Source: Candidatus Saccharimonadia bacterium (GTDB lineage Bacteria > Patescibacteriota > Saccharimonadia > Saccharimonadales > Saccharimonadaceae). From it: a stretch of 32,771 bases of DNA. Every line of letters starts with the position of its first letter. The stretch's first letter is position 1. The notes under the pieces are model-generated. The model did no database searches. It saw only the letters and a program-made list of their open reading frames with translations, and was not told where the DNA came from. Positions 4,361 through 22,772 of the stretch are shown here, piece after piece. The DNA is taken from assembly GCA_023260255.1 (NCBI GenBank), contig JALQVV010000089.1, positions 1 through 32,771 on the forward strand, in the 5' to 3' direction. A program made the position numbers and the translations under genes.

Positions 4361-4361
4361 A

Positions 4362-6188: not shown

Positions 6189-6196
6189 GATCTATA

Positions 6197-6202
6197 TCCT
6201 TT
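6197..6202 (-). promoter_or_regulatory. glmS ribosome binding site
   Basis: AAAGGA on the minus strand lies 8 nt before the glmS ATG. It is one of the promoter-proximal genes in this window with a convincing Shine-Dalgarno, in contrast to the leaderless starts elsewhere. Confidence 0.7.
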
Positions 6203-6206
6203 CGGC

Positions 6207-6224
6207 GCATGAAATATATCATGC
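6207..6224 (-). promoter_or_regulatory. Palindrome upstream of glmS (possible operator)
   Basis: GCATGA - 6 nt - TCATGC is a perfect 6-bp inverted repeat with an AT-rich centre, immediately upstream of the glmS Shine-Dalgarno. It could be an operator over a TATATT-like -10 or a small 5'-leader hairpin. The 6-bp arms are short enough that chance is possible. Confidence 0.35.
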
Positions 6225-6291
6225 TTGTGCATCTATCGTAACATTAAACTTTTTGGAAAATTTAGTAAAATGTATATATTACAACTATATA

Positions 6292-6819
6292 TTAACTTTC
6301 CGACCGCTTTTCTATAGCCTTGGCAATCACAGTGTCGTGATGCCCCATAAGATTACTTGGTAGTGCATTAACGGGGAAGAATTTCATGCTCTCTAGCAAT
6401 TCTCCACAATCTTTCAATTCAGCATAGAACAACTGATCCAACTCTCTACCTCGTTCAATTTCCCAGAATTCCGTACTCACATATTTAGGTTCGGTGATTG
6501 CTACAAGATCGTAGAGCTCATCGTGAAGTATTCGTTCAAAACAGGTGACAAATGTACCCTCAGCATCTGTCGATCGAAGGACCGTTCCGGGTATGTGCCA
6601 CTGACCCGGCCAGTGCTTATCATCATCAGGTCGCTTAGTTAGCAAAACGTGCAACTCGTTTTTTACCTGCTGAAAAATAACCATCTCTAACGTAGGCGTT
6701 ACAATTTTTGAGGTAATTGCCATAAACAAGGGATATGGCAGGTACCCACGCGACAGCCGTTTAACCACTTCGGCCGCTTTTTCTATCTCTTCATTTGAAG
6801 GATAGTCGGATTGACTCAT
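6292..6819 (-). CDS. Nudix-like hydrolase with degenerate Nudix box, coupled to manC
   Basis: 175 residues. The middle looks like a Nudix fold: VIFQQVKNELHVLLTKRPDD, then WPGQWHIPGTVLR, the usual strand leading into the Nudix box. The expected box (GX5EX7REUXEEXGU) is only partly met: after GTVLRSTDAEGTF comes CFERILHDEL instead of a clean REUXEE. It may be a divergent hydrolase of nucleotide sugars or a non-catalytic member. An N-terminal helical extension of about 35 residues precedes the domain. The ATG overlaps the manC stop (TAATG), implying translational coupling, so a role near GDP-mannose or its products is plausible but inferred. Confidence 0.6.
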   Translation of the reverse strand: MSQSDYPSNEEIEKAAEVVKRLSRGYLPYPLFMAITSKIVTPTLEMVIFQQVKNELHVLLTKRPDDDKHWPGQWHIPGTVLRSTDAEGTFVTCFERILHDELYDLVAITEPKYVSTEFWEIERGRELDQLFYAELKDCGELLESMKFFPVNALPSNLMGHHDTVIAKAIEKRSES

Positions 6820-7859
6820 TATGACCCTTGGATCTTCTTTGCAATCTCGCCTACTCGCGGACTCAAATCCTTACGGGCAACCAGCAAGCCGTCTTTCGTG
6901 TTTACAACAACTATGTTATCCAGACCAATGACTGCGATATGCTTGTCGGGATCTTCATTACGAATATATGTATTTTCAACCTCTATATCATGGATGTTTT
7001 CGCCACGAAAATGATTCTGATTCTCATCTGATTGATTAGCTTCATGCAGGTCTTTAAAGTTACCGACATCCATCCAGTCAAACCCGGCTGGTATGACAAT
7101 GAGTGACGATGACTTTTCGATCAGCGCAACATCAATTACTTCGTTTTCAAATGACAAATACGTTTTAGCATAGTCATCAGGATCAACAATATCTTTCAGC
7201 TTTTCATAATTCGCCTTTAGCTCCGGCGCATATTCGTCCATCTCTTTTAGGAATGTATTCACCGAACCAACAAAATAGCCACAGTTCCACAAATAATTTC
7301 CACTAGCTACATAGCGACTTGCCGTTTCAAAATCAGGTTTTTCCTTAAAGCTCTGAACATGAAAGGCGCCATCGACACCCTCTATTTCCCCATTACGTTC
7401 AATGTAACCGAATCCGGTGGCGGGATATGTCGGTTCAATCCCAATCAGTACTATCTGGCTACATTTTTGCGATGCCTCAGCCGCTTCTTTAAACGACAAG
7501 GCAAACCCGTGCGAGTCACGAATATGATGATCAGCATGAATAAATGCAATCGGCTCATCATGGTCATGTCGTTTCGCTACATGCGCAAGTGCCGCCACGA
7601 TACAATTTGCAGTGCCTCGACGCCCTGGCTCCACTACAAAATGATCTTCGTCTAGCTCGGGCAACTGTGCCTTTAGTGCATCAGCATGACTAATGTCCGG
7701 CACGACATATACATCTTTACTCAATAATTTTGCACGCTCATATGTATTTTGCACCATCGACTTTTCGTTGGTTAGTGCTAGCAGTTGCTTTGGGTTGTTT
7801 GATGTTGACAGTGGCCATAAGCGGGTACCAGACCCCCCGGCAATAATAACGGTAATCAT
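6819..7859 (-). CDS. manC: Mannose-1-phosphate guanylyltransferase
   Basis: 346 residues. It begins MITVIIAGGSGTRLWPLSTSNNPKQLL, the nucleotidyltransferase signature of mannose-1-phosphate guanylyltransferases. Further family landmarks are FVVEPGRRGTANCI, FIHADHHI, GFGYIERN, KEKPDFETA and the product-site region YLWNCGYFVG. It makes GDP-mannose from mannose-1-phosphate and GTP. This is the short form without the C-terminal cupin isomerase domain of bifunctional AlgA/ManC proteins; a separate cupin protein is encoded at 23957. A TATAAT lies 7 nt before the ATG, so the mRNA is probably leaderless. The stop overlaps the Nudix gene start. Confidence 0.9.
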   Translation of the reverse strand: MITVIIAGGSGTRLWPLSTSNNPKQLLALTNEKSMVQNTYERAKLLSKDVYVVPDISHADALKAQLPELDEDHFVVEPGRRGTANCIVAALAHVAKRHDHDEPIAFIHADHHIRDSHGFALSFKEAAEASQKCSQIVLIGIEPTYPATGFGYIERNGEIEGVDGAFHVQSFKEKPDFETASRYVASGNYLWNCGYFVGSVNTFLKEMDEYAPELKANYEKLKDIVDPDDYAKTYLSFENEVIDVALIEKSSSLIVIPAGFDWMDVGNFKDLHEANQSDENQNHFRGENIHDIEVENTYIRNEDPDKHIAVIGLDNIVVVNTKDGLLVARKDLSPRVGEIAKKIQGS

Positions 7860-7866
7860 GTCACCT

Positions 7867-7872
7867 ATTATA
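7867..7872 (-). promoter_or_regulatory. -10 element (TATAAT) of manC, leaderless start
   Basis: Minus-strand TATAAT, then AGGTGAC (7 nt), then the manC ATG. AGGTG might be read as a Shine-Dalgarno but would sit only 2 nt from the ATG and largely upstream of the predicted transcription start, so the leaderless reading is preferred. Confidence 0.65.
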
Positions 7873-7874
7873 CC

Positions 7875-9590
7875 TTAGCTTCTAAATATTTTTGTCAGCA
7901 CATAATCAAACAGATCACCGACCCTTGGCTGCGAAACATAATATGTATTAGTCCCTTTTCGTGCGTCGACTAACACGCGAGGATCATTAGGCGTACGGAA
8001 AAATAAAACCTTGTTTCCCGCATCGTCTCTCACCTTTGTGAGACGTGAAAAGTTTTGTGGCAATGGAAAAGACTTTACATTTTCGCTACATCGCACAATA
8101 AATTTCCTCTCGTTTAACTCTTTGTGTTCGTCTTGGGTCTCAGTAGAGCATAGCGAAGGAGAATAGAATGATTCTTTAACATAGACTTGGCTCTTATCAA
8201 TACTCTTCACTGACTTACCCGCGTCGTCCACATAGCTTGGAAGGTATTCACCAATACCCATCGTCATATTCTGCATGTATTTCTGATCGATTCCTCCCGA
8301 GAATACGTTCGCCCCAAGAAATGTATACTTAAAATTGTGTGTGATTGGACCGAGTAATACTGTAATCACTATAAGTATTATTGATCCGTATGGAAGCAAC
8401 TGCCTCAATCTCCTATTTTTACTCACTAAGCTTGACCATATATAGACACACAACAGGATTAGCATGGGCACGATAAATGTCAGGAGTCGCCATGGGAATT
8501 GAAGAAGGTTAAGAAAACCTAGAAAATCATAGAGCGGCAAAGATATCTCTGTTTGCAAGAAGAAAAATATCGCAAGACATATAATAAGCACAGTGATATA
8601 AAGAGGTGTTTGTTGCTCCATTTTACGTTGATACACAAGATACATAACAGCTATTAAGCCCACTAGTAAAGGGACCCAGACTGTATAGTCTATTTGGAGT
8701 TGCAATTTCGTATAGTCTTGCAGCCAGACAAAATGCGTATCAATAAAGTACCTGTCAAGGGAAACCATCTGATGTTTTGGTAAAAAATTCTCCTCATTTA
8801 TGGAGGCGGGGTTATAGTCGTGAGTATAAATTTTATAGATAGCAAGATAAGGCATCATGATGGCTATGGATATAAGTCCCGCTATCGCCAACCTACGCAA
8901 GGTTTGTTTTTTTGTATCTTGAGGAATACGCGAAAATAAATGAGCGATACCTGCTACACCCAATAATAAAAGACTCGTGAGAGCGATAATATTGTGAGTA
9001 AAGAAGAGAAGTGTCATAAGAGGGATAATCCAATAGGAAAAAACCCTCTGCTTAAGTAGTATCATGCTCCAATACAGTACATATGGTATAAGCATATAAG
9101 CAGCAAACTCAGCCATGGCGGCTCTCACTAGCCAGTCCATGAACGCATAATTACCTAATATAAACAGTAGGGGAGCCGCAACCTGTAAACTAAAATGCCG
9201 TGTCAGTAAGCGTGTACAGAGGTACATCCCCCACCCACCCACCATGAGCCAGATAACTATCGTTAAAGCTATCGACAGCTTCACCGATCCCGATATTAAC
9301 AATATAGTTGCTGCTATGTAGTAAAAAGTCTTGTGATAAAAGAATGTACTCGGTGTTCCATAGCCATTAGCATCTCCTGAATACCATATCGGAAATAGAT
9401 CACCCTGCGCTATGTGTGCGGCGTAAACTTGTGTACGTGTACTAAAAGCTGTAAATTCATGGTTCATCGGCCAGCCGGGCTGCCGGAACACTAGAGACAC
9501 AGCCCCAATACTGGCTACAAGAAAGATGATCGACGCAATAAATACTCTGTTGCGTACATTTCTTCTTATTATCGTCTTCAGCCTATCCAT
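7875..9590 (-). CDS. Large polytopic membrane protein, GT-C-like (6-PTPS-related membrane domain type)
   Basis: 571 residues with an N-terminal membrane anchor (VFIASIIFLVASIGAVSLVF), then an external loop MNHEFTAFSTRTQVYAAHIAQGDLFPIWY, and about ten further hydrophobic segments to about residue 410. A soluble C-terminal part of about 150 residues follows. The early loop with an acidic/His patch, followed by DANGYGTPSTFFYHKTFYY, is typical of the GT-C-like proteins often annotated as 6-pyruvoyl-tetrahydropterin-synthase-related membrane proteins. Such proteins probably use polyprenyl-phosphate sugars on the outer face; no activity can be stated here. It lies 31 nt downstream of the methyltransferase gene and is probably in its operon. 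Confidence 0.65.
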   Translation of the reverse strand: MDRLKTIIRRNVRNRVFIASIIFLVASIGAVSLVFRQPGWPMNHEFTAFSTRTQVYAAHIAQGDLFPIWYSGDANGYGTPSTFFYHKTFYYIAATILLISGSVKLSIALTIVIWLMVGGWGMYLCTRLLTRHFSLQVAAPLLFILGNYAFMDWLVRAAMAEFAAYMLIPYVLYWSMILLKQRVFSYWIIPLMTLLFFTHNIIALTSLLLLGVAGIAHLFSRIPQDTKKQTLRRLAIAGLISIAIMMPYLAIYKIYTHDYNPASINEENFLPKHQMVSLDRYFIDTHFVWLQDYTKLQLQIDYTVWVPLLVGLIAVMYLVYQRKMEQQTPLYITVLIICLAIFFFLQTEISLPLYDFLGFLNLLQFPWRLLTFIVPMLILLCVYIWSSLVSKNRRLRQLLPYGSIILIVITVLLGPITHNFKYTFLGANVFSGGIDQKYMQNMTMGIGEYLPSYVDDAGKSVKSIDKSQVYVKESFYSPSLCSTETQDEHKELNERKFIVRCSENVKSFPLPQNFSRLTKVRDDAGNKVLFFRTPNDPRVLVDARKGTNTYYVSQPRVGDLFDYVLTKIFRS

Positions 9591-9621
9591 AGTCTTCCCA
9601 GCTATAAAACTCGGAATAGGC

Positions 9622-10440
9622 TTACTTATTTGATCTGCGTAATTTTCGTGAAGTGGGATGTGATTTTTTCGCGCGTGATATTTTATTAGTCGTATGAATA
9701 TTTGCTGCCTTTTTTAGAACCGCAACTACAGATGTACCTGCCGGATAACTCATGTATTTATGCCCCTTTGCTTCGAGACGCAACATATTAGTAAAGCTAT
9801 CGTTAATCCACTTTGGTACATTAACGTAAGAAGTCTCCTCTGTCGTCTTACGTCTCAGTGCCTTGTTGAGGTAACGAAAACCAACAACAAGTGGTAAAGA
9901 GAAGACGATCGCGTAAGACACTTTGTCTGACATTAATCCCACATTCATTGCTTTCTTACGAATCGATCCCTTGGTATGTCGGCGAAAATGCATCAATGAA
10001 ACATCATGATCCGTCCACAACCATTCGTATGCGGGCACAGTCAGTACAATCTTACCTCCAGGTTTAAGCACTCGGGCCCACTCCTCAAGCGCTGCCTCAT
10101 CATCTTCAATATGTTCTAGTACGTCAAATGCACCTACTATATCAAACGTTCCTGTTTCATATGGCAATGTTTTACCATCAATCTTATCTGCCTTGTAGCC
10201 ACGTTTTTTCAAATATTTAATAGCGTCGTCTGAAACATCTGCGTTCAAAACATCTCCAAATTTTTCAAGACTTGGTATGGTTCCACCAGTGCCTGCGCCG
10301 ATATTTAAAATTTTCACCTCTTCCGATTTCTTGTCACCGAGAGCAAGTGACATGTATTGTTCGATAATTTCGTATCGCCCTAAATGCCACCAATAGTCGC
10401 GCTCCCTGTCTGCCATTGTCGTATATTCGGTTGTTCTCAT
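9622..10440 (-). CDS. Class I SAM-dependent methyltransferase
   Basis: 272 residues. It has the SAM-binding motif I ILNIGAGTGGTIPSLEKFG, then VLNADVSDDAI, DIVGAFDVLEHIEDDEAALEEWARVLKPGGKIVLTVP (motifs II/III) and YEWLWTDHDVSLMHFRRHTKG. The last segment is typical of methyltransferases found in polysaccharide loci that act on glycan or lipid-linked substrates. The C-terminal about 25 residues are very basic (KISRAKKSHPTSRKLRRSNK), perhaps for membrane or nucleic-acid contact. It starts a minus-strand unit, divergent from the mannosyltransferase gene at 10549, followed by the GT-C-like protein. Confidence 0.8.
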   Translation of the reverse strand: MRTTEYTTMADRERDYWWHLGRYEIIEQYMSLALGDKKSEEVKILNIGAGTGGTIPSLEKFGDVLNADVSDDAIKYLKKRGYKADKIDGKTLPYETGTFDIVGAFDVLEHIEDDEAALEEWARVLKPGGKIVLTVPAYEWLWTDHDVSLMHFRRHTKGSIRKKAMNVGLMSDKVSYAIVFSLPLVVGFRYLNKALRRKTTEETSYVNVPKWINDSFTNMLRLEAKGHKYMSYPAGTSVVAVLKKAANIHTTNKISRAKKSHPTSRKLRRSNK

Positions 10441-10452
10441 GTGTTGTGCTCC

Positions 10453-10481
10453 ATTATGCCATTACTGCACCTTAAAGTGAA
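10453..10481 (-). promoter_or_regulatory. Promoter for the methyltransferase unit
   Basis: On the minus strand TTCACT (-35-like), a 17-nt spacer, then CATAAT (-10-like), ending 12 nt before the ATG at 10440. A GGAG (10449-10452) also lies 8 nt before the ATG. If transcription starts the usual 7 nt after the -10, that GGAG would fall outside the mRNA, so the mode of initiation is ambiguous. Confidence 0.5.
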
Positions 10482-10530
10482 CACTCTTGGTATAAGCCAC
10501 AACACTCTATTCCCATAAATTACGAGATGC

Positions 10531-10539
10531 TGGTATTCT
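10531..10539 (+). promoter_or_regulatory. Extended -10 (TGGTATTCT) of the mannosyltransferase gene
   Basis: TG-n-TATTCT ends 9 nt before the GTG start at 10549, giving at most a two-base leader. No Shine-Dalgarno is visible. Confidence 0.45.
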
Positions 10540-10548
10540 GGTATTACT

Positions 10549-11808
10549 GTGAATAAAGTTGAGGACATATACAAAAGAATTACCAGACGACTACCCGCAG
10601 AACTAGTAGCCGACCTTCCTAAGCTAACTGTGCTTTTTATTATTTGGGTTTGCGTTATTCTAAGTGTCGCTTATTTTGCATCGAATGAGCTTTATGGCAT
10701 TCGCGACTATCAAACAAAAGAGATAGTCGATGGAAATAAACTGCAAAAAGTTGAGCCCCCTGAGATTCTTGAAGGACTTATGCGGTGGGACGGCCCATGG
10801 TATGTTGATATTGCGCTGAATGGCTATCATAAACCCCATCCAACCGATACGCCCGGATTTGAAACTAATAGACAAGTAGCGTTCTTCCCCCTTTACCCCA
10901 CGCTTATACGAGCCGGATTAAAAGTAGGATTAAATCCTGCCGTTGCAGCTATAGGTATAAATATCTTACTAAGTTTTGGGTGTCTTCTATTTATCTATCT
11001 TATTGCACTTGAACAATTAAAGTCGCGCAAGCTTGCACTCCGCACGTCGATTTTATTTCTCTTCCTGCCCGCATCCTTTTTTCTAATTAGTCCATACACT
11101 GAAGCCGTTTTTTGTTTCTTTAGCTTTGGCGCTTTCTATTTTGCCATGAAGCAAAGATGGCTTACGGCAAATATATTTCTAGCATTTTGTACAGCGTCGA
11201 GGTCAGCTGGCCTAATTGTCGCATTATGCATATTCTTATACTATCTTCATAGCCATAACTGGAGGTGGAGAAGCATAGACCGCTCTGTCTTGTTTTTCTT
11301 CATAGCACCTCTCGGTACTATTCTGTACGCGCTTTACCTATGGCACACATTTAATAATCCTTTACTTATGCTAGACGCTCAGAAATATTGGGCACAGAGT
11401 ATCCAGCCCAACATATTACTGACTTTATGGGATAAGACTGTTGATATTGTCGCCGCTATCGCAACTCCTGGATACGACTCTTTTGGAGGTGACTATGGTA
11501 AGGAGTGGATAAATCTCATGACGTGGGGGTCTTTCGTTTCGGCTGGCGTCATTTGCCTGTGGGCATACCTCCGGAAAAATCTGAGCCTTCCTCTTGCGCT
11601 CTACGTTGTCATAAGTCTCATATTTTTCATCAGTAAAGGGAATTTTATCTCTGTTAACCGTTATACTCTTCCCCTTTTTCCTGTGTATTTACTCCTCGTC
11701 TTTTATACGCGCAAAAGTGAGTTCTGGTTCACAATTCTTCTTGCAATATCATCAATCATTATGTGCTTCACGTTAATTCAATTTTCAATTTCCTACTGGG
11801 CCGGCTAA
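10549..11808 (+). CDS. PIG-V-like (GT76-type) membrane mannosyltransferase
   Basis: 419 residues with about nine to ten membrane segments, starting at GTG. After the first segment comes MRWDGPWYVDIALNGYHKP and then RQVAFFPLYPTLIRAG. The RWD...Y..IA..GY and AFFPLYP motifs are hallmarks of the PIG-V family, GT-C enzymes that use a polyprenyl (dolichyl)-phosphate mannose donor. In bacteria they modify surface glycans, lipids or proteins, with catalysis on the outer face. It is divergent from the methyltransferase gene and 81 nt before the surface-protein pair at 11890 and 12421. With ManC nearby, a mannosylated surface product is likely; the acceptor is unknown. Confidence 0.8.
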   Translation: MNKVEDIYKRITRRLPAELVADLPKLTVLFIIWVCVILSVAYFASNELYGIRDYQTKEIVDGNKLQKVEPPEILEGLMRWDGPWYVDIALNGYHKPHPTDTPGFETNRQVAFFPLYPTLIRAGLKVGLNPAVAAIGINILLSFGCLLFIYLIALEQLKSRKLALRTSILFLFLPASFFLISPYTEAVFCFFSFGAFYFAMKQRWLTANIFLAFCTASRSAGLIVALCIFLYYLHSHNWRWRSIDRSVLFFFIAPLGTILYALYLWHTFNNPLLMLDAQKYWAQSIQPNILLTLWDKTVDIVAAIATPGYDSFGGDYGKEWINLMTWGSFVSAGVICLWAYLRKNLSLPLALYVVISLIFFISKGNFISVNRYTLPLFPVYLLLVFYTRKSEFWFTILLAISSIIMCFTLIQFSISYWAG

Positions 11809-11876
11809 CGACCTCTTTAGATATACCCTATTTCATGGTATTCTTGTGTTACGTAGCATAAACACAAACAACTGGA

Positions 11877-11882
11877 TATAAT
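11877..11882 (+). promoter_or_regulatory. -10 element (TATAAT), leaderless start
   Basis: A perfect TATAAT, then TATTAGT (7 nt), then ATG at 11890. No Shine-Dalgarno is present. This is among the clearest leaderless starts in the window. Confidence 0.7.
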
Positions 11883-11889
11883 TATTAGT

Positions 11890-12420
11890 ATGAGAATTGA
11901 ACACAAATCAAAGAAACGTTGGCCATTAGTAATTACTATTGCGACAATTGTTATCATTATTTGTGCTGGTATTGGTGTTTACGCTACTCAAAAATTCAAA
12001 CCCAACGACACAAAAGAAAATACAACAACAAGCTCATCTACGGACACAAATCTCGACCCGCCCACTAACGAGGAGATTCAGACTGGAAAAGATATAAAGG
12101 AGCAGAAGGTTAACCCGAGCACTCCCGTTCAAACTACTGAATCTCTTAACATCACAGCGAACAACACTGATTCGAATATACAGGTTCGTGCAACGATAGC
12201 TTCGAGCATTCAAGATGGCACTTGCACTATAACACTTACCAAAGGATCCTCTACTGTTACGAAGCCAAGTGTTGGCATACAGCCACTTTCCGGCTATTCT
12301 ACCTGTAAGGGCTGGGATATCCCCTTATCTGAATTATCATCCGGTACATGGAACATCGAAATTGTCGCTAAATACCAATCAAAAGTAGCGAGCGGTAAAA
12401 CGGAGGTAACCATTCCTTAA
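11890..12420 (+). CDS. Membrane-anchored extracytoplasmic protein with Ig-like C-terminal domain
   Basis: 176 residues. It has a basic N-terminus and one membrane segment (WPLVITIATIVIIICAGIGVYA), then a Thr/Ser/Asn-rich linker of about 60 residues (KENTTTSSSTDTNLDPP). A C-terminal beta-rich domain of about 90 residues follows, with a Cys pair (GTCTITL ... YSTCKGWDI) and the ending SGTWNIEIVAKYQSKVASGKTEVTI, typical of Ig-like/adhesin-type domains. No enzyme motif is seen. Its stop codon abuts the ATG of the LGFP protein (TAAATG), so both are on one transcript and probably function together at the surface. Confidence 0.7.
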   Translation: MRIEHKSKKRWPLVITIATIVIIICAGIGVYATQKFKPNDTKENTTTSSSTDTNLDPPTNEEIQTGKDIKEQKVNPSTPVQTTESLNITANNTDSNIQVRATIASSIQDGTCTITLTKGSSTVTKPSVGIQPLSGYSTCKGWDIPLSELSSGTWNIEIVAKYQSKVASGKTEVTIP

Positions 12421-14391
12421 ATGAAGACTGTTAAATCTATATTCAGACTCAAGCCTGTATTCATTGTCTTGTCTCTTTTTATAAGCTTGCTGTCTAGTTT
12501 TAGTGCGCATGCCGCCGTTGATGGATGGATTGCTGGAAATATCATGGATGACGGGATCTTTACAAATAGCAGCACTATGACTCCGGGGCAGATTCAAGTT
12601 TTCCTAGAGAGTAAAGTGCCATCATGCGATACTAATGGTCAGCAATTGTCCGAATATGGCGGTCCTGATTTGAACGGAGATGGAAAAGTTCAGCGATGGG
12701 AATGGGGGAAATCAAAATACAATCAGACAACGTTCTATTGTCTGCGCGATGCCTGGGAAAATGGCAGAAATGCATCAAGGATTATATGGGACACCGCTCA
12801 GAAATACTCAATAAACCCTCAGGTGCTTATCGTACTATTACAAAAAGAGCAGGGCCTTATAACAGACACTTGGCCGCTCAGTATTCAGTATAAAACGGCT
12901 ACAGGTTACGGTTGTCCTGACACTGCTCCGTGCGACAGCCAATATTATGGACTTACGAATCAGCTTGACTGGGCGGCAAAGATGTTTAGGGCAATCATGA
13001 ATGATAGTCCTACGTGGTATACCCCTTATGAACTCGGTGATAACTATATTCGCTATAATCCGGATGCATCATGTGGTGGTAGCAATGTAAAAATTCAAAA
13101 TCGCGCCACTCAAGCCCTCTATAACTACACACCATACCAACCAAACCAAGGAGCACTAAATGCTGGCTGGGGCACAGCAAACTGTGGTGCCTACGGCAAC
13201 CGTAACTTCTACCTCTATTTTAATAATTGGTTTGGTGATACGCGCATACAGATACTCGCATCAATCGCCGAGCGATATGCTGAGTTAGGTGGTAGCTCTG
13301 GAGTTCTCGGACCAGTCACCATGAACCGCGTCTGCAACCTACGTAATGGAGGATGCTACCAAGGTTTCCAGAACGGTGGAATCTATTGGTCCTCTGCTTC
13401 AGGAACATTTGAAAGTTATGGAGACCTGCGCCAGCGCTATCTTGAGATGAATACAGAAAATGGTGCCCTCGGCTATCCTACGAGTGCCGTTATCTGTGGA
13501 CTAAAGAGTAGTGGATGCTACCAGAGTTATCAAAACGGCGCTCTGTATTACTCTCCTACTGTGGGACATGCGTACGAAAGCATTAGTAATCTACGAGACC
13601 GCTATTGGTCACTTGGCAGTGAGAATGGGCCCCTCGGCTATCCCTCAACCCCTGTTGTCTGCGGATTACGTAATGGAGGATGCTACCAAGGGTACGAAAA
13701 CGGGGCAATATACAAGTCATCATTAGGTACATATGAAAACTACGGGGCAATACGTCAATACTACTTACAGAACGGAACCGAAAATGGTGGGCTAGGCTAC
13801 CCCATAAGCTCACAAAGCTGTAATACAAGAGATAATGGCTGCTATCAATTCTTTGAAAAGGGTAGTGTTTATCAAACGACCAATACTGGCACCCACTCAA
13901 TTCTTAGTGGCATATCCACGAAATGGAGTCAGTTCAGTAAGGAATGGGGTGTCCTTGGCTTTCCACTATCGGATGAGACCTACGGTGCTAAGAACAATTC
14001 AAGTTACCAGACCTTCCAGGGTGGCACCATCTATTGGACATCACGAGGTGGTATCGTTATATTCAATCAAATTGCTGATAGGTGGCGCGAGCTTGGCTCA
14101 GAATGGGGCATGCTCGATTACCCTATCTCCGACACTATTTGTGGTACAAAAAATAACGGCTGCTACCAACTCTTTAATAACACGAGAACCATATACTGGT
14201 CGCCAGCAACGGGGGCGAAAACAGTGTGGGGTGGTATATATAATGCATGGAGTAAGGTAGGAAAAGAGTGGGGACGGCTTGGTTATCCACTCACTAATGA
14301 GATATATGTAGATGGTGGATCATATCAGGACTTTGAAGGGGGTACTATTCACTGGAATTCAGCTCAAGGAACCACTGTTACCTATAACTAA
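12421..14391 (+). CDS. Secreted LGFP-repeat cell-wall-binding protein with lysozyme-like N-terminal domain
   Basis: 656 residues. A signal peptide (residues 1 to about 31) ends SSFSAHA. Residues about 33-275 form a domain found in actinobacterial proteins often labelled hemagglutinin. It holds an EF-hand-like loop DLNGDGKVQRWE (83-94, all acidic positions met) and NPQVLIVLLQKEQGLIT, where Glu143 sits as in lysozyme/transglycosylase folds. ATGYGCPDTAPCD and RNFYLYFNNWFGD follow. Residues about 291-656 hold seven LGFP-type repeats (GALGYPTS, GPLGYPST, WGVLGFPLS and so on), several with a Cys pair (VCGLRNGGCYQ). LGFP repeats (PF08310) are known from Corynebacteriales surface proteins and are thought to bind the cell envelope. 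Export and wall binding are well supported; hydrolase activity is inference. Confidence 0.88.
   Translation: MKTVKSIFRLKPVFIVLSLFISLLSSFSAHAAVDGWIAGNIMDDGIFTNSSTMTPGQIQVFLESKVPSCDTNGQQLSEYGGPDLNGDGKVQRWEWGKSKYNQTTFYCLRDAWENGRNASRIIWDTAQKYSINPQVLIVLLQKEQGLITDTWPLSIQYKTATGYGCPDTAPCDSQYYGLTNQLDWAAKMFRAIMNDSPTWYTPYELGDNYIRYNPDASCGGSNVKIQNRATQALYNYTPYQPNQGALNAGWGTANCGAYGNRNFYLYFNNWFGDTRIQILASIAERYAELGGSSGVLGPVTMNRVCNLRNGGCYQGFQNGGIYWSSASGTFESYGDLRQRYLEMNTENGALGYPTSAVICGLKSSGCYQSYQNGALYYSPTVGHAYESISNLRDRYWSLGSENGPLGYPSTPVVCGLRNGGCYQGYENGAIYKSSLGTYENYGAIRQYYLQNGTENGGLGYPISSQSCNTRDNGCYQFFEKGSVYQTTNTGTHSILSGISTKWSQFSKEWGVLGFPLSDETYGAKNNSSYQTFQGGTIYWTSRGGIVIFNQIADRWRELGSEWGMLDYPISDTICGTKNNGCYQLFNNTRTIYWSPATGAKTVWGGIYNAWSKVGKEWGRLGYPLTNEIYVDGGSYQDFEGGTIHWNSAQGTTVTYN
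13340..13364 (+). repeat. 25-bp exact direct repeat, copy 1 (LGFP unit 1)
   Basis: The 25-nt string beginning TACGTAATGGAGGATGC recurs exactly at 13667-13691. The copies are 327 nt apart (109 codons, two repeat units), so recombination between them would remove or add two units in frame. Confidence 0.85.
13667..13691 (+). repeat. 25-bp exact direct repeat, copy 2 (LGFP unit 3)
   Basis: Identical to 13340-13364. The protein context is also near-identical (NLRNGGCYQGFQNG and GLRNGGCYQGYENG). Confidence 0.85.
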
Positions 14392-14397
14392 AGGTTG

Positions 14398-14406
14398 TGC
14401 TACAAT
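14398..14406 (+). promoter_or_regulatory. Extended -10 (TGCTACAAT) of the DUF6311-like gene
   Basis: TG-n-TACAAT lies just after the LGFP gene stop and 13 nt before the ATG at 14420, implying a leader of about 6 nt. It supports the start at 14420 rather than 14312, which lies inside the LGFP gene. Confidence 0.5.
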
Positions 14407-14419
14407 AGTCGAGTTAACT

Positions 14420-16153
14420 ATGGCGAAAAGAACCAGTACAGACTCCATCAAACCACTGGTTAATGCCATCCTCTTTTTCTACAAGCTGCCCGTATTTTGT
14501 TTTCTGGTAGGCGCCTTTTTAGGCATTACTCTCTTTATTAGCCTGTTTGGATTGGGCGCATTAAACCCAACGAACATACAATGGATACAAAACATCAACG
14601 GTGATATGAATCAGCATTATATTGGATGGCTGTACTTTCGCGAAACCGCATGGCATTTCCCAAATATTGGCCAGATCGATGAACTCGCCTACCCCACTGG
14701 GATATCTCTTGTCTACATGGATGTCATTCCACTTTTTGCAATAATCTTTAAACTTTTTAGTGGTATACTCCCCGATCAATTTCAATACTTCGGCTTCTTC
14801 ACAGTACTAAGCTTCGCTCTTTTTGGTGGCTATGCTATGCTCATCTCTCGACGTTTCACCAAGAGGACTATCTTAGCATTACTTGGTGGAATGCTTATTA
14901 TCTGCACGCCCATCATTATAGGAAGAGCCTTCGGGCACACCGCACTTACAGCACACTGGCTTATACTTTGTGCATTATATTATGTGATTGTGTTTTATCA
15001 AGAACATAGAACCTCATTTAAGAAGCAGCTCGTAGTATGGACTACCCTCTTATCATTGGCCGTACTTACACATGCATATTTTATACCTATGGTTGGCTCA
15101 ATAATGTTATTCTCAATAATCCTACAACATCGAAGTTATCGTACGAGTATTCTCCTGTTTATTCTTCCCATTACTATCTCCCTAATTATATTTGGGGCTA
15201 TTGGTGGGTTTTCCAAAGGCGTCGTTACTAATGGAGATTCAGGGCTAGGTTTATATGCAACAAACGTTCTTGCGCCGATAATTCCCATGGGATATTCAAA
15301 CTTCCTTGGGTCAATTTTCACTCATGTGCAGTGGGAGGGCCTTGCATACCTTGGGCTTGGCGCACTCTCTTTACTGCCTATAATTTTTTACACTCATCTC
15401 CAGCGCATTAAGGAACAGCGGCCGAGTAAAGTATTTCGAACCCTGTGGTATTGGCTTCGAAATGCTAGAGTAGTGAGCCTATCAGCTCTAGTCTGCATCA
15501 TCGCGATAATTGCTTTCAGTCCATACATTTACATTGGTGATACAGTGCTGATACATATTCAAACGCCGGAGGCAGTCAAGCAGTTATGGGAGACGTTTCG
15601 ATCTACTGGACGATTATTTTGGCCAATCTATTACGCAGCTCTGGCTATTATCATAGCGCGTGTTTTCCGTGAAACGAGACTCTGGAAAACATGGACTGTT
15701 GTTATATTGCTTAGTCCTATTGTTCTCCTTCAGGCGTTTGATATTCTGCGCTCCCCCGCCGTGACTGCGAAAAGTAATGATATACATGCAGCTATCACCA
15801 CACCCCATATAACCAATCACCTTAATTCTCAATTGATTGAGCGAAACTGCAGCAAGGACGAGGTGATCTTACTCGACAACACGATTGAAGCGGGTATAGA
15901 TATGTTTCGCGATCTATCGGACTATATTATCTTTTGTCATCCAAAGCTCACGACTGGTTATTTTGCACGATTCCCTAAAAAAGCAATTATTGACTACGCA
16001 AATGACAAACGTTCAGGTCTAATCAAGGGGACGTTATCTATCCCTAGCTCGTCTCTCTACCTACTAAAGGATAGTCATTTCCTCGAAATGATTAACCATA
16101 ATAAGTACCAATACTCACAGGTAGGTAAGTATTACGTAATCAAAAATAAATAG
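14420..16153 (+). CDS. DUF6311-like polytopic membrane protein (probable GT-C fold)
   Basis: 577 residues with about ten membrane segments. The first external loop has NQHYIGWLYFRETAWHFPNIGQIDELAYPTGISLVYMDVIPLFAIIFKLF, followed by DQFQYFGFFTVLSFALFGGYAML. This GW-FR-W-FP ... P-G-S-Y-D-IPL ... QYFG pattern is what I associate with the DUF6311 family, membrane proteins of polysaccharide loci with a GT-C-like layout. The C-terminal about 120 residues are soluble. The ORF-track start (14312) is inside the upstream gene; the ATG at 14420 follows an extended -10. It ends one base from the convergent GT4 gene. The substrate is unknown. Confidence 0.7.
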   Translation: MAKRTSTDSIKPLVNAILFFYKLPVFCFLVGAFLGITLFISLFGLGALNPTNIQWIQNINGDMNQHYIGWLYFRETAWHFPNIGQIDELAYPTGISLVYMDVIPLFAIIFKLFSGILPDQFQYFGFFTVLSFALFGGYAMLISRRFTKRTILALLGGMLIICTPIIIGRAFGHTALTAHWLILCALYYVIVFYQEHRTSFKKQLVVWTTLLSLAVLTHAYFIPMVGSIMLFSIILQHRSYRTSILLFILPITISLIIFGAIGGFSKGVVTNGDSGLGLYATNVLAPIIPMGYSNFLGSIFTHVQWEGLAYLGLGALSLLPIIFYTHLQRIKEQRPSKVFRTLWYWLRNARVVSLSALVCIIAIIAFSPYIYIGDTVLIHIQTPEAVKQLWETFRSTGRLFWPIYYAALAIIIARVFRETRLWKTWTVVILLSPIVLLQAFDILRSPAVTAKSNDIHAAITTPHITNHLNSQLIERNCSKDEVILLDNTIEAGIDMFRDLSDYIIFCHPKLTTGYFARFPKKAIIDYANDKRSGLIKGTLSIPSSSLYLLKDSHFLEMINHNKYQYSQVGKYYVIKNK

Positions 16154-16154
16154 C

Positions 16155-17318
16155 CTAGCCGATTAAGCGACGGTAAGCCTTGATAACAACATCTGCTATT
16201 TTAGGCCAGCTATATGCTTCAGCATACTTATCGCCAGCCGCAATCTGCCCTTTAATATCAACTCGCCCCAACTCACGCGCAAGCTCATAGTAAGCAGCCG
16301 CAGTCGTAAGCTTAATCTCGCCAAATTCTTTATTCATCTCTTTAAATGAATCCGTAGGATACCCGATAACTGCTCGCTGATTGGCGAAAGCAAGGTTAAG
16401 CGCACCCGATGAAACCTGACCGTAGTACTTGTTATTGTATGCATACACGCAAATATCAACTTCACGAATGAGCGCATTTAGTCGATCATCGTCATCTACA
16501 TAACCTGTGATATAAACCCGATCTTTGAGTCCTAGTGCATCTATGAGCGTTGCAATGGTATTGTAAATATTTACTTCATCACTTATTGGTTGCATGCCAC
16601 CAATGATTGCTAATTTGTAGTTATCAGGAAGATATTTCAGCGCTCGAACAGCGTCCTCGATGCCTTTATATTTATGCATGAAACCAATAGTTGCATATAT
16701 AATATCACCTGATTTCTTGTTTAGATTATCTGCAATTTCTGTTGACTTTATTTTTGGTCTTGTAAAAGGAAGTACCGGGTGATTAAATTGGATGATTTTT
16801 TCCTTATCGATACCATATGCCACCAAACTACTTGTTGTACCATTGTTATGTGTAAACAAAAGATCAGCCTTCTTGAATGCTTCGATGTGTCGTTTCTTAA
16901 ATATGCCGTGCAGCCGTTTTTGTCGAAGTACATTGACGATACTCCGTGGTCCAATACCCTCGCGTGGCTTAAATTTAAATGCGAGGGCTGGAGAAAGGTG
17001 CACCGTGACAACTACTTTTTTATCAATTTCTTTTGCAGCATCTACAATCTGGGCAAACTCGTCACCTGAATACAGTCCAAACTCATGCTGGATATGTAAA
17101 ATATCGTAGTTTTCAAGCTCCATCTTGAGCCGATCTAGTGTTTCGTCCAACTCATCCTGATTCATCACACGCGTTTTGTATGGCGATGAGTCAAAAAACT
17201 TTGTTTCAATTTTATCCGGCCATTGATCAAATTCGTGAACAAAATTTTCTTGGTATTTTCCAACTCCACAGTTATCTGAACTGCGTGAGCTGAATTGCAA
17301 GACCTTGATTTTAGACAT
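16155..17318 (-). CDS. GT4-like glycosyltransferase (last gene of the wzm-wzt operon)
   Basis: 387 residues, GT-B fold. The N-terminus is KVLQFSSRSSDNCGVGKYQENFV, a GT4-type glycine loop. The donor domain has YATIGFMHKYKGIEDAVRALKYLPDNYKLAIIGG and DRVYITGYVDDDDRLNALIREVDICVYAY. The usual EX7E donor motif is replaced by GQVSSGALNLAFANQRAVIGYP, as in the GT4 subgroup with a Ser-Gly-Ala-Leu version, so the first Glu is missing. Upstream is a clear Shine-Dalgarno (AGGAG, 7-nt spacing), and it overlaps the preceding GT4 gene by 8 nt. It is the sixth and last cistron of the glycan export operon. Confidence 0.8.
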   Translation of the reverse strand: MSKIKVLQFSSRSSDNCGVGKYQENFVHEFDQWPDKIETKFFDSSPYKTRVMNQDELDETLDRLKMELENYDILHIQHEFGLYSGDEFAQIVDAAKEIDKKVVVTVHLSPALAFKFKPREGIGPRSIVNVLRQKRLHGIFKKRHIEAFKKADLLFTHNNGTTSSLVAYGIDKEKIIQFNHPVLPFTRPKIKSTEIADNLNKKSGDIIYATIGFMHKYKGIEDAVRALKYLPDNYKLAIIGGMQPISDEVNIYNTIATLIDALGLKDRVYITGYVDDDDRLNALIREVDICVYAYNNKYYGQVSSGALNLAFANQRAVIGYPTDSFKEMNKEFGEIKLTTAAAYYELARELGRVDIKGQIAAGDKYAEAYSWPKIADVVIKAYRRLIG

Positions 17319-18624
17319 GTACTATCTCCTGCATTTTACTGCGTACTTGTGCGTATGACTCATCCCATGTAGTCTGTTTGTATTCCGCACATTTTGCACG
17401 CCATTTCTTCTGGTTTTCCGGTGTTAGCATTTCTTGGATCAAGGCAAGACACTCGTCTGTTGATGCCGGATCAAAATGTCGAACGTAACCTTCCGCTACC
17501 TCTATCATACTGGTTTTATCACTACATATACAAGGGGTGCCCTGCGCAACACTCTCAGCAATAGGAATCCCCCACCCCTCTGCAAAACTAGGCAACACAC
17601 TTAATTTAGCGTGCCTGTACAGCCAGGATAAATTTTCATCTGATGCATCGTGGAGAAACACAAATTTATCTTTCACTTCAGGATCTTGTGTCATGAAGTC
17701 ATATATTTGCTCCGTCTTCCATCCCCTCCTACCGACAATGACTGATACCGGCAAATCAATCCCTCGTGACCTAGCAAGCTTATAGACGTAGTAGAGAAGT
17801 GTGTGATTTTTTCGAGCCTCAATAGTGCCGACAGTGAGGAGGTAGTCTTTCTTTTCGAGTCCAGCTTCAACAAACGTTTTATCTATTGGCATTTCTGACT
17901 TCGCGAACTCAAAGTCTTCACCCAGTCGAAACACTTCCATCTTGGGCGGTTTTATACTATTCTTCACAAGCCACTTATGCAAGTCTTCTTGGGTGGCGCG
18001 TGAGACGCTCAACACAAGTGCTGATATAGGTACAATGCGCCGACAGTAGTTCATTAAACTCTCGCTTGAATGCCCGGAAAACTGTGGTGTTAATGTAAAC
18101 GGTAGAACATCGTGGATTATAGGGATAATCTTCAATTCTGAATCTTGCACACCATCTTCAAGAGTCTGTAGGAAATTCTCGTCCCACCATTCACCCCATG
18201 ATATAAATATTGCATCACCCTTTTGGAATAATACCTTCTTGTATGACTGCGCTTCAACTAAGGCAAGGTTATTTTGTGTTCTTTTAACGATAGCGAGGTC
18301 GTCAAGGCCCACATTTGTAATCACTCTTTTCACAAAATGCTTTAATGGCTTATATACTTCATTTAATTGTACGGTCTTTTTCTTATTACCATTCTCAGTA
18401 GATCCATCCTTTATATAGACGATACCTTTGCCAAGTTTCTTTACTGTTGCGCTGAAATCAATTTCACAGAAAGCAGCAACCTCCTTTACCCAAGAAACAT
18501 AGACAACCTCTTGCGCACCTCTCGGTTTGAAGCGGATTGAAAGTTCATACATAACACGGGGGATACCCGTCAGATGCCCCTGCCAGTGTACAAGCTGTGT
18601 TACATCGACATAAACTTTCGACAC
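17311..18624 (-). CDS. GT4 family glycosyltransferase
   Basis: 437 residues from the GTG at 18624, which directly precedes KVYVDVTQLVHWQGHLTGIPRVMYEL, a typical beginning of this GT4 subgroup. The ORF track uses an in-frame GTG at 18651 inside fkbM, which remains possible. The donor domain contains LTVGTIEARKNHTLLYYVYKLA and SFAEGWGIPIAESVAQGTPCI (EX7E-type). Proteins of this kind are long GT4 enzymes of ABC-exported O-antigen loci. Between the two domains is an insert around residues 55-110. It follows fkbM with almost no gap and overlaps the next GT4 gene by 8 nt. Confidence 0.82.
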   Translation of the reverse strand: MSKVYVDVTQLVHWQGHLTGIPRVMYELSIRFKPRGAQEVVYVSWVKEVAAFCEIDFSATVKKLGKGIVYIKDGSTENGNKKKTVQLNEVYKPLKHFVKRVITNVGLDDLAIVKRTQNNLALVEAQSYKKVLFQKGDAIFISWGEWWDENFLQTLEDGVQDSELKIIPIIHDVLPFTLTPQFSGHSSESLMNYCRRIVPISALVLSVSRATQEDLHKWLVKNSIKPPKMEVFRLGEDFEFAKSEMPIDKTFVEAGLEKKDYLLTVGTIEARKNHTLLYYVYKLARSRGIDLPVSVIVGRRGWKTEQIYDFMTQDPEVKDKFVFLHDASDENLSWLYRHAKLSVLPSFAEGWGIPIAESVAQGTPCICSDKTSMIEVAEGYVRHFDPASTDECLALIQEMLTPENQKKWRAKCAEYKQTTWDESYAQVRSKMQEIVHV

Positions 18625-18625
18625 G

Positions 18626-19522
18626 CTATTTACTACTCCCGTTTTTCTCACTACCCTTGGCGTACATTTTTAGCGACTTCCTCAATAATGCACGCCTATC
18701 CGCAAGCGTTTGCTTCAAAGTACTGTTCTCTAACTCTAGCTTTCGTATGGTCTCGGCTAGTTCTTTTTCGACTTTCTTACTATACTTATAAAACTTGTTT
18801 GCATTATCGAAGTCTTCATAACGAATGCCGCCACCACGTCGGATAAGAACATGTTCAATAAATGGAAGTTCTTTATGTGAGAACCCTTTCTCTACATAGT
18901 AATCATTGAGTCCGTCATTGAAGACTCTGTTGTAACCCTTGCTTTGTAAGAACTTCCTTGTCTCAGAAGCACTAAATCCAGCTTCTATACAAAGAACATC
19001 TGGGCGGAACTTTTTCCAGTCATTGCTCTCGAGGACTTCCCGCTCAAAACCCTCTACGTCGACTTTCATGAAATCTATCTTCGTTACCTTATTTTGAACA
19101 AACACTTCCTTTAATGGAACGATTTTCACTTTAGTATCTTGCCATTCGTCTGTAGAACTGTTCTTTGTATGGAGATATTGTTCTTTTATTTTATCCGACA
19201 AGGTCGAAAGCCCACCACTCTTATAAACACGAAGTGTCTTAGTTCCTTTTTTAGTTCCGACAGCAGCATTAATATTGATGTCTTTCGGACGACGTTTCAA
19301 AAATTTTTCATATTGAGCCAACTGAGGTTCAATATTAATACCAATCCATCCACGCGTATAGAAAAGTCGCGTAACCGAATCGTAGTCAGGATCATATGCA
19401 CCCACATCGACATAGAAGCCCTTTTTCTTTTCAACGAAAAAAGATTCAAGCAGCAAATCTTCCCGATTCTGCGCGTAGGTAATCTTGTTACGATAATGCT
19501 TCAGCGTTTCCTCTGTTATCAT
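18626..19522 (-). CDS. FkbM-family methyltransferase with C-terminal coiled coil
   Basis: 298 residues. FkbM-type SAM methyltransferase landmarks: NREDLLLESFF, then GFYVDVGAYDPDYDSVTRLFYTRGWIGINIEP (SAM motif I with the acidic pair) and KIDFMKVDVEGFEREVLES (motif with the catalytic-site Asp-Val-Glu-Gly). The last about 50 residues (EKELAETIRKLELENSTLKQTLADRRALL) look like a coiled coil, which could dock to a partner. FkbM enzymes in O-antigen operons methylate sugar hydroxyls, in ABC systems sometimes at the chain end recognised by Wzt. That role fits here but is inferred. It overlaps the upstream GT4 gene by 4 nt (ATGA). Confidence 0.85.
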   Translation of the reverse strand: MITEETLKHYRNKITYAQNREDLLLESFFVEKKKGFYVDVGAYDPDYDSVTRLFYTRGWIGINIEPQLAQYEKFLKRRPKDININAAVGTKKGTKTLRVYKSGGLSTLSDKIKEQYLHTKNSSTDEWQDTKVKIVPLKEVFVQNKVTKIDFMKVDVEGFEREVLESNDWKKFRPDVLCIEAGFSASETRKFLQSKGYNRVFNDGLNDYYVEKGFSHKELPFIEHVLIRRGGGIRYEDFDNANKFYKYSKKVEKELAETIRKLELENSTLKQTLADRRALLRKSLKMYAKGSEKNGSSK

Positions 19523-20673
19523 TTCTCGTCAACCTCCTCTATGACACGAATCAATTCAGCAGCACTTCTACTCCATGAGAACCGTTTCGAGCGTTGCAGG
19601 CCATACTTATTCACATCTTGCCTACTGTAATAATACATCATTTCTTTGGCTATACTTGATGCGTTTGTGACATCTACATATCGTCTGAATTGCTCACCCA
19701 TTACTTCTGGTAATGATGAATTATCACCTACTATCACATATGCGCCGCATGACATAGCTTCAAGAGGGGTTAACCCAAATCCCTCATAGAGAGCTGGATG
19801 AACGAGACAGATAGACGCAGAAAGCAATGCGGGCATATCTGCATCAGGTACATAGTGATCTGGCTTTAAGATTCCATAACCTTCCTTCTTCATTTTTTTG
19901 ATTTTTGCAAATATTTTTTCATTCCCCCACCCCATACCGCCAACTATAAGCAACGGGATTTCTCTCTCTCCAGTTTTATCTACAAACAACTTATATGCAT
20001 CAAGTAGTTTTTCTATGTTTTTGCGTGGTTCGATATTACTGAAGAAAACGAAGAATTTTTTACGCGACAAATCATACTTTGCGATAATTTTATCCTGTTC
20101 CTCATGCGAACGAGGGTAGTATAGGGAGTGATCGACTCCATTATAAACGGTGCGTACCTTGCCCCTCGACTCTGGAAAGAAATATTCTATCTCTTTCTTT
20201 GCATGTCGTGAGACAGTTACAACAGCGTCAGCCCTTTGGATAAACTGGTCTATATGACGTTCCAGCAGATCAAGATTTTTCACTTCAATATGTTCCGGTG
20301 CAATCTTGAAGTAAACATCGTGAATATAAGTAATGTTTTTTGAAAAGAGGAGGGGCCAATTTTTGAAATTGGGAAATAAATATATCCCTCTCCCGAAGAT
20401 GATATCCATAAAAGGTGTTACGCCGAAACGAACTGCACCATTCATAATCCTTGCCGGTAAGAATAGTCGTTTTATTTTTATCGAATTTGGCAGGTGGTGT
20501 GTTCCAAGGAAAGATGTTTTGTTAAATGGCACTATGAGAATTAGCTCAAACTTTTTTATGAAATCCTCATTCGCGGCAAGCGAACGGATCAGGTGAAGTG
20601 CGGTGTGTCCAACACCGCTCATATTCTTTTCTGCGATTGACCCAGCCTCGACAAATAGTTTTCGCTTAGCCAT
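19519..20673 (-). CDS. GT4 family glycosyltransferase (mannosyltransferase-like)
   Basis: 384 residues. It begins KLFVEAGSIAEKNMSGVGHTALHLIRSL, the GT4 subgroup with a G-V-G-H-x-A/T loop. It continues with TYIHDVYFKIAPEH and VTVSRHAKKEIEYFF, then the donor-domain signature SNIEPRKNIEKLLDAYKLF and LYEGFGLTPLEAMSCGAYVIVGD (EX7E). Enzymes of this type transfer mannose or rhamnose in ABC-type O-antigen assembly; the sugar here cannot be set from sequence. It overlaps wzt by 8 nt and fkbM by 4 nt, so translation is coupled through the operon. Confidence 0.85.
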   Translation of the reverse strand: MAKRKLFVEAGSIAEKNMSGVGHTALHLIRSLAANEDFIKKFELILIVPFNKTSFLGTHHLPNSIKIKRLFLPARIMNGAVRFGVTPFMDIIFGRGIYLFPNFKNWPLLFSKNITYIHDVYFKIAPEHIEVKNLDLLERHIDQFIQRADAVVTVSRHAKKEIEYFFPESRGKVRTVYNGVDHSLYYPRSHEEQDKIIAKYDLSRKKFFVFFSNIEPRKNIEKLLDAYKLFVDKTGEREIPLLIVGGMGWGNEKIFAKIKKMKKEGYGILKPDHYVPDADMPALLSASICLVHPALYEGFGLTPLEAMSCGAYVIVGDNSSLPEVMGEQFRRYVDVTNASSIAKEMMYYYSRQDVNKYGLQRSKRFSWSRSAAELIRVIEEVDEK

Positions 20674-21883
20674 TGCTCACTTCTACATCAATAGCCGGCT
20701 CGACCGCAAAGCTTGTGTGCTGTTCGCGGAAGACGCTAATATATTTTGCGTTCTCCCACCAGTCATACTGTACCGTCTCGTCACTATTCGCAACAGCAAC
20801 ATCCACAACGTAGTCGCCGTCATTTAGAATGTTTGGAATGCGCCACGTAATAGTGCCTTTATCTCCCTCTTTCATTGCAGCCATATCCTTATGTTGAAGT
20901 CTCGTGTTGGTACCGAACATTATAGTGCCTGCCGTATTCTTAATAGAGAATCCAAAGACTGGTCCTTTGACATCACTTTTTACTTCATAATCCACATGAA
21001 TTTCAATCATCTTCGCTTGCTGCGTAATACGCTTTGGCTCAACGCTCAAGCTATTATATTGGACCTGCTTCGTCCCCCAACGGTTCTTCTTAATTTTAGT
21101 TTGTGCATCGTTCTTATCAATTGAGTCGTCTTCCATGAACATGCGGGTATATGATGATGCAACTTTACCAACGTTGCCCTCTACAATGATCTTGCTCTTT
21201 TCGATTAGCACAGCGCGATCACAATATTCGCGTACAGCATTCATATCGTGACTAACAAAGACAACTGTTTTACCCTGATTTTTTAGTAATTTAAAATAAT
21301 TGAAGCATTTACGTTGAAAATCTGCATCTCCAACAGCAAGCACCTCATCAACAAGTAAAATATCGGCTTCAGCATGCGTTGCAACAGAGAAAGCGAGTCG
21401 TACCTGCATACCAGATGAGTAGTTTTTAAGTTTCTGATCCATGAATTTTTCAAGCTCGGCAAATTCAACAATCTCATCGTACATAGTATCAATCTCTTTA
21501 CGAGTAAATCCTAGTAGTGCACCGTTAAGATAGACGTTTTCGCGACCAGAAAGTTCTGGATTAAAGCCTACCCCTAGTTCGATAAAAGGCACTAGTCGAC
21601 CATGTGTCTTAATATTCCCGGATGTTGGCTGGTAGATACCCGCTAAAATCTTTAATAATGTACTTTTACCACTACCATTCCGTCCGACAATACCAAAAAA
21701 CTCACCCTTTTTAATATCAAAGCTAACATTCTGCAAGGCATGTTGAACTTCATACCCTTTGTTACGTCTCTTTAAGCTACCTGTTACCCATGATTTTATT
21801 GAGCTGTTTTTTTCATGAGGAAGTTTAAAGAACTTCGAGACATTATTGACCGAGATAGCCACTTCGCGTTGATCGTCTGTCAT
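20666..21883 (-). CDS. wzt: Polysaccharide ABC transporter ATP-binding protein with glycan-recognition domain
   Basis: 405 residues. The nucleotide-binding domain has Walker A GRNGSGKSTLLKIL, the family-typical ELSGRENVYLNG, signature NYSSGMQVRLAFSVA, Walker B ADILLVDEVLAVGD and the switch His in VFVSHDMNAVREYC. Residues about 255-400 form a beta-rich Wzt C-terminal domain (GPVFGFSIKNTAGTIMFGTNTRLQ ... DYVVDVAVANSDETVQYDWW). In E. coli O9a that domain binds the modified chain terminus and licenses export. The ORF-track start 21964 lies in wzm. The ATG at 21883 has a strong Shine-Dalgarno and directly precedes the NBD. It partners with Wzm immediately upstream. Confidence 0.92.
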   Translation of the reverse strand: MTDDQREVAISVNNVSKFFKLPHEKNSSIKSWVTGSLKRRNKGYEVQHALQNVSFDIKKGEFFGIVGRNGSGKSTLLKILAGIYQPTSGNIKTHGRLVPFIELGVGFNPELSGRENVYLNGALLGFTRKEIDTMYDEIVEFAELEKFMDQKLKNYSSGMQVRLAFSVATHAEADILLVDEVLAVGDADFQRKCFNYFKLLKNQGKTVVFVSHDMNAVREYCDRAVLIEKSKIIVEGNVGKVASSYTRMFMEDDSIDKNDAQTKIKKNRWGTKQVQYNSLSVEPKRITQQAKMIEIHVDYEVKSDVKGPVFGFSIKNTAGTIMFGTNTRLQHKDMAAMKEGDKGTITWRIPNILNDGDYVVDVAVANSDETVQYDWWENAKYISVFREQHTSFAVEPAIDVEVSNG

Positions 21884-21884
21884 A

Positions 21885-22694: not shown

Positions 22695-22706
22695 TCGTAC
22701 CGCTTT

Positions 22707-22712
22707 ATTATA
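22707..22712 (-). promoter_or_regulatory. -10 element (TATAAT) of the wzm operon
   Basis: A perfect minus-strand TATAAT ending 12 nt before the wzm ATG, implying a leader of about 5 nt. No strong Shine-Dalgarno is present. Confidence 0.55.
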
Positions 22713-22756
22713 TCCTATTTTATACCGCTTCCAGGATTTACTTGTGATCTCAATGT

Positions 22757-22762: not shown

Positions 22763-22772
22763 AATAAGTACT

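Follow-up and report, generated by a model that had tools for sequence, protein, structure and literature searches.

We describe a class-wide two-gene surface module of Saccharimonadia in which a conserved pair of proteins carries an exchangeable tail, and which is previously undescribed. Saccharibacteria are very small and live on the cells of other bacteria. The module was studied in a stretch of 32,771 nucleotides from a Candidatus Saccharimonadia bacterium (assembly GCA_023260255.1, contig JALQVV010000089.1; hereafter the window), whose genome comprises 1.02 Mb and is 98% complete. On the + strand of the window, gene 1 (11890..12420) encodes a partner protein of 176 amino acids (aa) and gene 2 (12421..14391) encodes a secreted head-tail protein of 656 aa. 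The original prediction, made from the letters of the window, had already recognised the abutting gene pair, whose junction TAAATG we find at these positions. It had also guessed that the DNA belongs to Saccharibacteria, which is borne out by kinship and by the nearest relatives: the closest named ones are Candidatus Saccharibacteria, e.g. UBA2018 (locus L118), whose head is 76% identical.

A conserved head with a dedicated partner

The head of gene 2 (residues 33–272, 12517..13236) is about 245 aa long and is present in 213 of the 245 Saccharimonadia genomes (87%) and in 94 of 109 genera, usually in a single copy. A phylum-wide sample of 287 genomes contained 109 with a head, 86 of which come from other classes and have diverged heads; L216–L227 are such heads from other Patescibacteria classes. 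In one genome the head-tail gene is duplicated in tandem, with two complete heads 2.5 kb apart (G182:C4:35280-38538). When 49 aligned heads were searched against Pfam (E≤0.1), no lysozyme family, SLT and glucosaminidase included, was detected, and the NCBIfam search likewise returned no convincing family, lysozyme or other. Neither did Pfam and NCBIfam hold a convincing family for the partner, and our literature search found no publication that describes the head or partner family. Judged from these comparisons of sequence, the head domain, which nearly all Saccharimonadia have, and the partner family are both undescribed.

In 137 of 139 Saccharibacterial loci the gene directly upstream of the head encodes the partner, most commonly with an overlap of 4 nt (34/75). 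This co-occurrence supports the earlier suggestion that the two genes form a conserved system. A raw tally of partners in 237 of 245 genomes was set aside because weak matches to the transmembrane (TM) helix and linker inflate the count. Members of the partner family are 170–210 aa long and share two invariant cysteines, which in gene 1 are Cys112 (12223..12225) and Cys139 (12304..12306), with a predicted disulfide between them. The protein starts with a short basic N-terminal segment, followed by a single TM helix (residues 11–33), a low-complexity linker and an immunoglobulin (Ig)-like domain of about 90 aa (residues 86–175). An AlphaFold model of gene 1 has a predicted local distance difference test score (pLDDT) of 84.6, with 93–98 in the Ig part, which forms a beta sandwich; its Foldseek matches are mostly Ig-like or FnIII-type beta sandwiches. 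The membrane-anchored Ig-like protein that had been proposed upstream of gene 2 is thus recovered in a confident model. Furthermore, membrane anchoring is supported by an Actinomycete that has both head and partner (L286:2498-4777 and the gene just upstream), where a lipobox-like signal replaces the TM helix.

Transcription of the pair was proposed to start from a leaderless promoter. The candidate -10 element TATAAT is found at 11877..11882 (+ strand), 7 nt before the ATG of gene 1, but a consensus scan for a sigma-70-type pair returned no site there. A -10-like hexamer occurs at the same place in 33 of 133 relatives, compared to 13% in shuffles, which weakly supports the proposal. From sequence, we regard a leaderless promoter ahead of gene 1 as plausible.

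Wholesale exchange of tails at the head end

In the window, the tail consists of seven LGFP repeats, as had been predicted. The PF08310 profile matches the product of gene 2 with 285 bits (1.0e-86), and each repeat scores above the cut-off of 22: repeat 1 (13306..13464, 51.6 bits), repeat 2 (13468..13629, 44.7 bits), repeat 3 (13633..13788, 47.7 bits), repeat 4 (13792..13932, 50.0 bits), repeat 5 (13954..14109, 55.8 bits), repeat 6 (14119..14274, 58.0 bits) and the partial repeat 7 (14278..14382, 38.7 bits). The sole relatives of gene 2 by sequence in the PDB are of the LGFP part of Corynebacterium glutamicum PS1 (mycoloyltransferase A; 6swz, 6sx4), which is homologous to residues 309–538 (8e-25). 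In PS1 the LGFP part follows a mycoloyltransferase, whereas in the window protein it follows the head, and in relatives it is replaced by unrelated tails.

The suggested host adhesion had been built on the LGFP repeats, and here we come to a different view. Instead of LGFP, the closest relatives of the window protein, whose heads are 71–75% identical, have tails of the bulb-lectin, GW/SH3-like or DUF5648-like kind, and any LGFP match is found in just 36 of the 245 class genomes. In two Saccharimonadia genomes, LGFP-repeat open reading frames (ORFs) are distant from the head gene (G041:C1:223896-224660; G025, contigs C16 and C37). The 139 distinct tails were grouped into 17 clusters, between which no similarity could be detected, so that LGFP is one of about 17 tail types. 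The largest clusters are a bulb-lectin with an NBR1-type Ig domain (28), GW/SH3-like (21), ricin-type lectin (21) and an unnamed repeat (18); further clusters are LGFP (14), DUF5648 (8), CARDB (6) and ChW (6). Most tails are of known glycan- or wall-binding kinds (B_lectin, RicinB, LGFP, DUF5648, ChW, SLH and FG-GAP), where the names GW/SH3-like and PLL were assigned by eye and one dockerin assignment (L114) lies under the Pfam cut-off.

The head tree has 139 tips and requires at least 78 changes of tail class, close to the roughly 97 obtained with shuffled labels. Among pairs with 70–80% head identity, just 27% have the same tail class. For instance, loci L175 (RicinB tail) and L178 (GW-like tail) share 97.4% nucleotide identity across 6674 bp up to the head end and have nothing in common in the next 6 kb; the homology to L188, which has an LGFP tail, stops at the same point. 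Homology ends between -3 and +19 nt from the head end in 49 pairs, 48 of which have no homology in the following 3 kb. Tails are exchanged wholesale between close relatives, and the break lies exactly at the head end.

Assembly chimerism is unlikely to explain this pattern because the breaks in L175 and L178 lie in the middle of contigs (128 and 283 kb) and the same breakpoint is seen in all 49 pairs. We also considered silent tail cassettes that are shuffled within a genome and would serve phase variation. These are not supported because all seven LGFP matches of the window genome are in gene 2, the LGFP matches listed for two other genomes (G137, G243) are likewise confined to one gene each, and no spare tails lie beside the gene in the loci. 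Saccharibacteria are naturally competent (PMC10633639), and natural competence offers a route for tail exchange. Selection retains head and partner, with the tail being replaced as a whole. The same logic is known from modular autolysins and phage endolysins, where one cell-wall domain is joined to unrelated targeting domains; the module described here differs in being chromosomal and class-wide, in having a dedicated anchored partner and in being coupled to a surface-glycan locus.

The likeness to endolysins raises the question of whether gene 2 is a lysin derived from phages of Actinobacteria or carried by them as cargo. Its LGFP part does match a PHROG endolysin family (phrog_2998, 1.5e-51). 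However, no match to the head was found in 50,697 phage and 72,556 plasmid records, on the basis of which we rejected a phage or plasmid origin, and the conserved partner, the chromosomal place and the class-wide presence do not fit a phage gene either. We thus give a phage-derived lysin next to no weight.

Predicted fold and activity of the head

Gene 2 begins with a Sec-type signal peptide (residues 1–32, 12421..12516), which we read directly from the sequence in line with the prediction and which would be cleaved between SAHA and AVDG. Several residues are invariant or nearly so in heads: K142, E143, C165-P-D167, C171, C218, Y236-TPY, C255, G259-N and W270-F. The head motif reads QKEQ...CPDTAPCD...YTPYQPN...GNRNF. 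Among these, Glu143 (12847..12849) had been put forward as the candidate catalytic residue of a lysozyme-like domain. It is invariant across all aligned heads and, in profile alignments with probabilities of 5–41%, stands in register with the catalytic Glu of the SLT (GH23) and glucosaminidase (GH73) families. The AlphaFold model of the head is confident (pLDDT 94.2, predicted template modelling score 0.90). Its Foldseek neighbours in the PDB are Staphylococcus aureus AtlE, LytB, g-type lysozymes, MltE/MltF and Slt, and those in a viral library are SLT transglycosylases and glucosaminidases. The top matches in both libraries are almost all peptidoglycan hydrolases of the lysozyme superfamily, at weak scores (E 0.01–1, TM-score about 0.3). 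Based on these modelled neighbours and on the position of Glu143, we conclude that the head is probably a divergent lysozyme-like domain that has kept the catalytic Glu, with a predicted activity, much as had been suggested.

The head resembles GH73 glucosaminidases (AtlE, LytB), GH23 lytic transglycosylases and g-type lysozymes in its predicted fold neighbourhood and in the position of the catalytic Glu. It differs from them in having no significant Pfam match, a KEQ motif where SLT and GH73 have ES, about 70 additional N-terminal residues, an invariant set of cysteines and the motifs YTPY and GNRNF. Some of these differences would fit a pure adhesin or scaffold, in which the head has no catalysis and only binds peptidoglycan or docks the partner. 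The KEQ motif and the weak similarity to active enzymes point in that direction, as do the many conserved residues that are distant from Glu143 (YTPY, GNRNF, WF and the cysteines). However, an invariant Glu143 is not expected for a dead site, and we thus consider a non-catalytic head improbable.

An EF-hand- or dockerin-like loop (DLNGDGKV, 12667..12690) was also part of the prediction. The loop exists in the window protein, but it lies in a lineage-specific insertion and its motif D-x-N/D-x-DG occurs in just 6 of 80 relatives, so that we reject it as a defining feature.

Host wall or own envelope

To interpret the module, its genomic setting and its occurrence outside Patescibacteria have to be taken into account. 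In the window, the pair is enclosed by a surface-glycan locus (342..29419, from Pfam matches and the ORF map) that includes glycosyltransferases. It contains genes for a Wzy_C-like protein (342-1694), a sugar transferase (1759-3243), ManC (6819-7859), a PIG-V-type mannosyltransferase (10549-11808), a DUF6311 protein (from 14420), a Wzt_C ABC ATPase (20666-21964) and an ABC-2 permease (21885-22694). The latter two (20666-22694) form an ABC exporter pair with a Wzt_C domain, i.e. O-antigen-type glycan export in a monoderm epibiont. The gene lexA stands at the left edge (8-352) and jag, yidC, rnpA and dnaA at the right (29397-32771), so that the window in its entirety forms an island of surface-glycan genes flanked by lexA on one side and the region of the replication origin on the other. 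The module lies at the margin of a glycan locus and is near dnaA in many genomes, that of the window among them. Glycosyltransferases are found downstream in 103 of 143 loci (for 112 loci, the sequence extends 4 kb or more downstream), Wzt- and Wzm-type exporters are common, and LCP, lexA, jag, yidC, rnpA and dnaA lie upstream in many loci. No glycan gene common to the LGFP-tail loci was evident among 14 of them.

The head also occurs in 9 of 198 genomes (about 5%) of the class of Microbacterium oxydans (Actinomycetes), and these heads fall into one or two groups in the tree. One carrier, L286, also has a partner, as described above. The tails there include LGFP (10 repeats, one case), CWB2 (one case), FG-GAP and SH3, and the neighbours include Wzm/Wzt exporters or rhamnose genes. 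In Microbacterium, we searched for the partner and did not find it.

We lean towards an envelope module that acts at the contact zone, although we hold this reading tentatively and at somewhat less than an even chance. Gene 1, anchored in the membrane, would present or tether the exported gene 2 product, whose lysozyme-like head is followed by a C-terminal tail that may provide target specificity. The tail would grip a glycan of the neighbouring bacterium's wall, which in the case of the window genome may be an arabinogalactan-type wall because the tail is LGFP. The head would bind or locally cut peptidoglycan at the contact zone, and with a different tail the cell would be directed to new hosts. 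In favour of this reading, the head is retained by 213 of 245 genomes in a class of obligate epibionts compared to 9 of 198 in Actinomycetes. The constant presence of the partner, the predicted fold of the head with its invariant Glu143, the glycan- or wall-binding kinds of most tails and their frequent exchange also count in its favour. A more far-reaching version seems doubtful to us: here the tail would be the main determinant of host range, and a universal lysozyme-like head would be redirected to other actinobacterial hosts by tail exchange via natural transformation, with the head gene as the homologous crossover anchor.

Several observations weigh against action on a neighbour's wall. 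What speaks most strongly against a role solely in host attachment is that the same head-tail gene, with LGFP or CWB2 tails, occurs in glycan loci of free-living Actinomycetes. Furthermore, the saccharibacterial module adjoins a locus for the cell's own glycan, and changes of the tail tend to go along with changes of the downstream glycan genes. For the head, the E-values of the PDB matches are 0.1 or more at TM-scores of about 0.3, and the probabilities of the alignments to SLT and GH73 are low.

The free-living carriers and the glycan setting would fit an own-envelope protein, which we consider nearly as likely: the tail would bind the producer's wall or the surface glycan made by the neighbouring Wzm/Wzt-type locus, while the head would remodel the cell's own peptidoglycan, e.g. 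for glycan display, pilus passage or division. Much as in capsule switching, tail swaps would then track those of the glycan locus. CWB2, SLH and LGFP usually bind the producer's own wall. Glycan loci adjoin or enclose the module in both phyla, LCP ligase genes are near, and in L175 and L178 tail and downstream genes swap as one block. Among close heads, downstream gene sharing is 0.29 with the same tail and 0.04 with different tails, compared to 0.69 upstream in either case. However, such co-movement is also expected from linkage, and a stratified permutation on tail and neighbour sharing is significant upstream too, being confounded by kinship. Moreover, 37 of 54 close pairs with the same tail share less than 10% of their downstream genes, which speaks against a strict matching of the tail to the own glycan, and the low retention in the sampled Actinomycetes (5% compared to 87%) is not what an own-envelope role would suggest. 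On balance, we slightly favour the wall of a host or contact partner over the own envelope. With the same head in free-living Actinomycetes and the module inside the own surface-glycan locus, the host adhesion originally predicted is not supported as it was put, and host attachment is a plausible candidate role.

Relation to known host-contact factors

Two essential genes that lie side by side in Southlakia epibionticum, SEML1_0890 (FnIII) and SEML1_0891 (VCBS), have been speculated to encode adhesins (PMC10633639). Compared by annotation only, they have the arrangement of our module, with an Ig/FnIII-type protein followed by a protein with a lectin-like tail, and a position shortly ahead of dnaA, as is found for the module in many genomes, would agree with their high locus numbers. 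They are possibly the same pair, a lead that comes from gene order and domain types. Type IV pili have been covered as a means of host adhesion in Saccharibacteria, where close-range adhesins were left unnamed (PMC12206443). Our module is likewise a candidate host-contact factor; it encodes no pilin, has no pilus genes beside it, and would have its place in the close-range step.

The module may bear on the way in which Saccharibacteria select and retain their hosts, and its variable part can be read from any genome. If it is true that the tail binds host walls, the tail type would predict the type of host. If the tail instead binds the cell's own glycan, the module would provide a handle on the envelope of an almost uncultured group.
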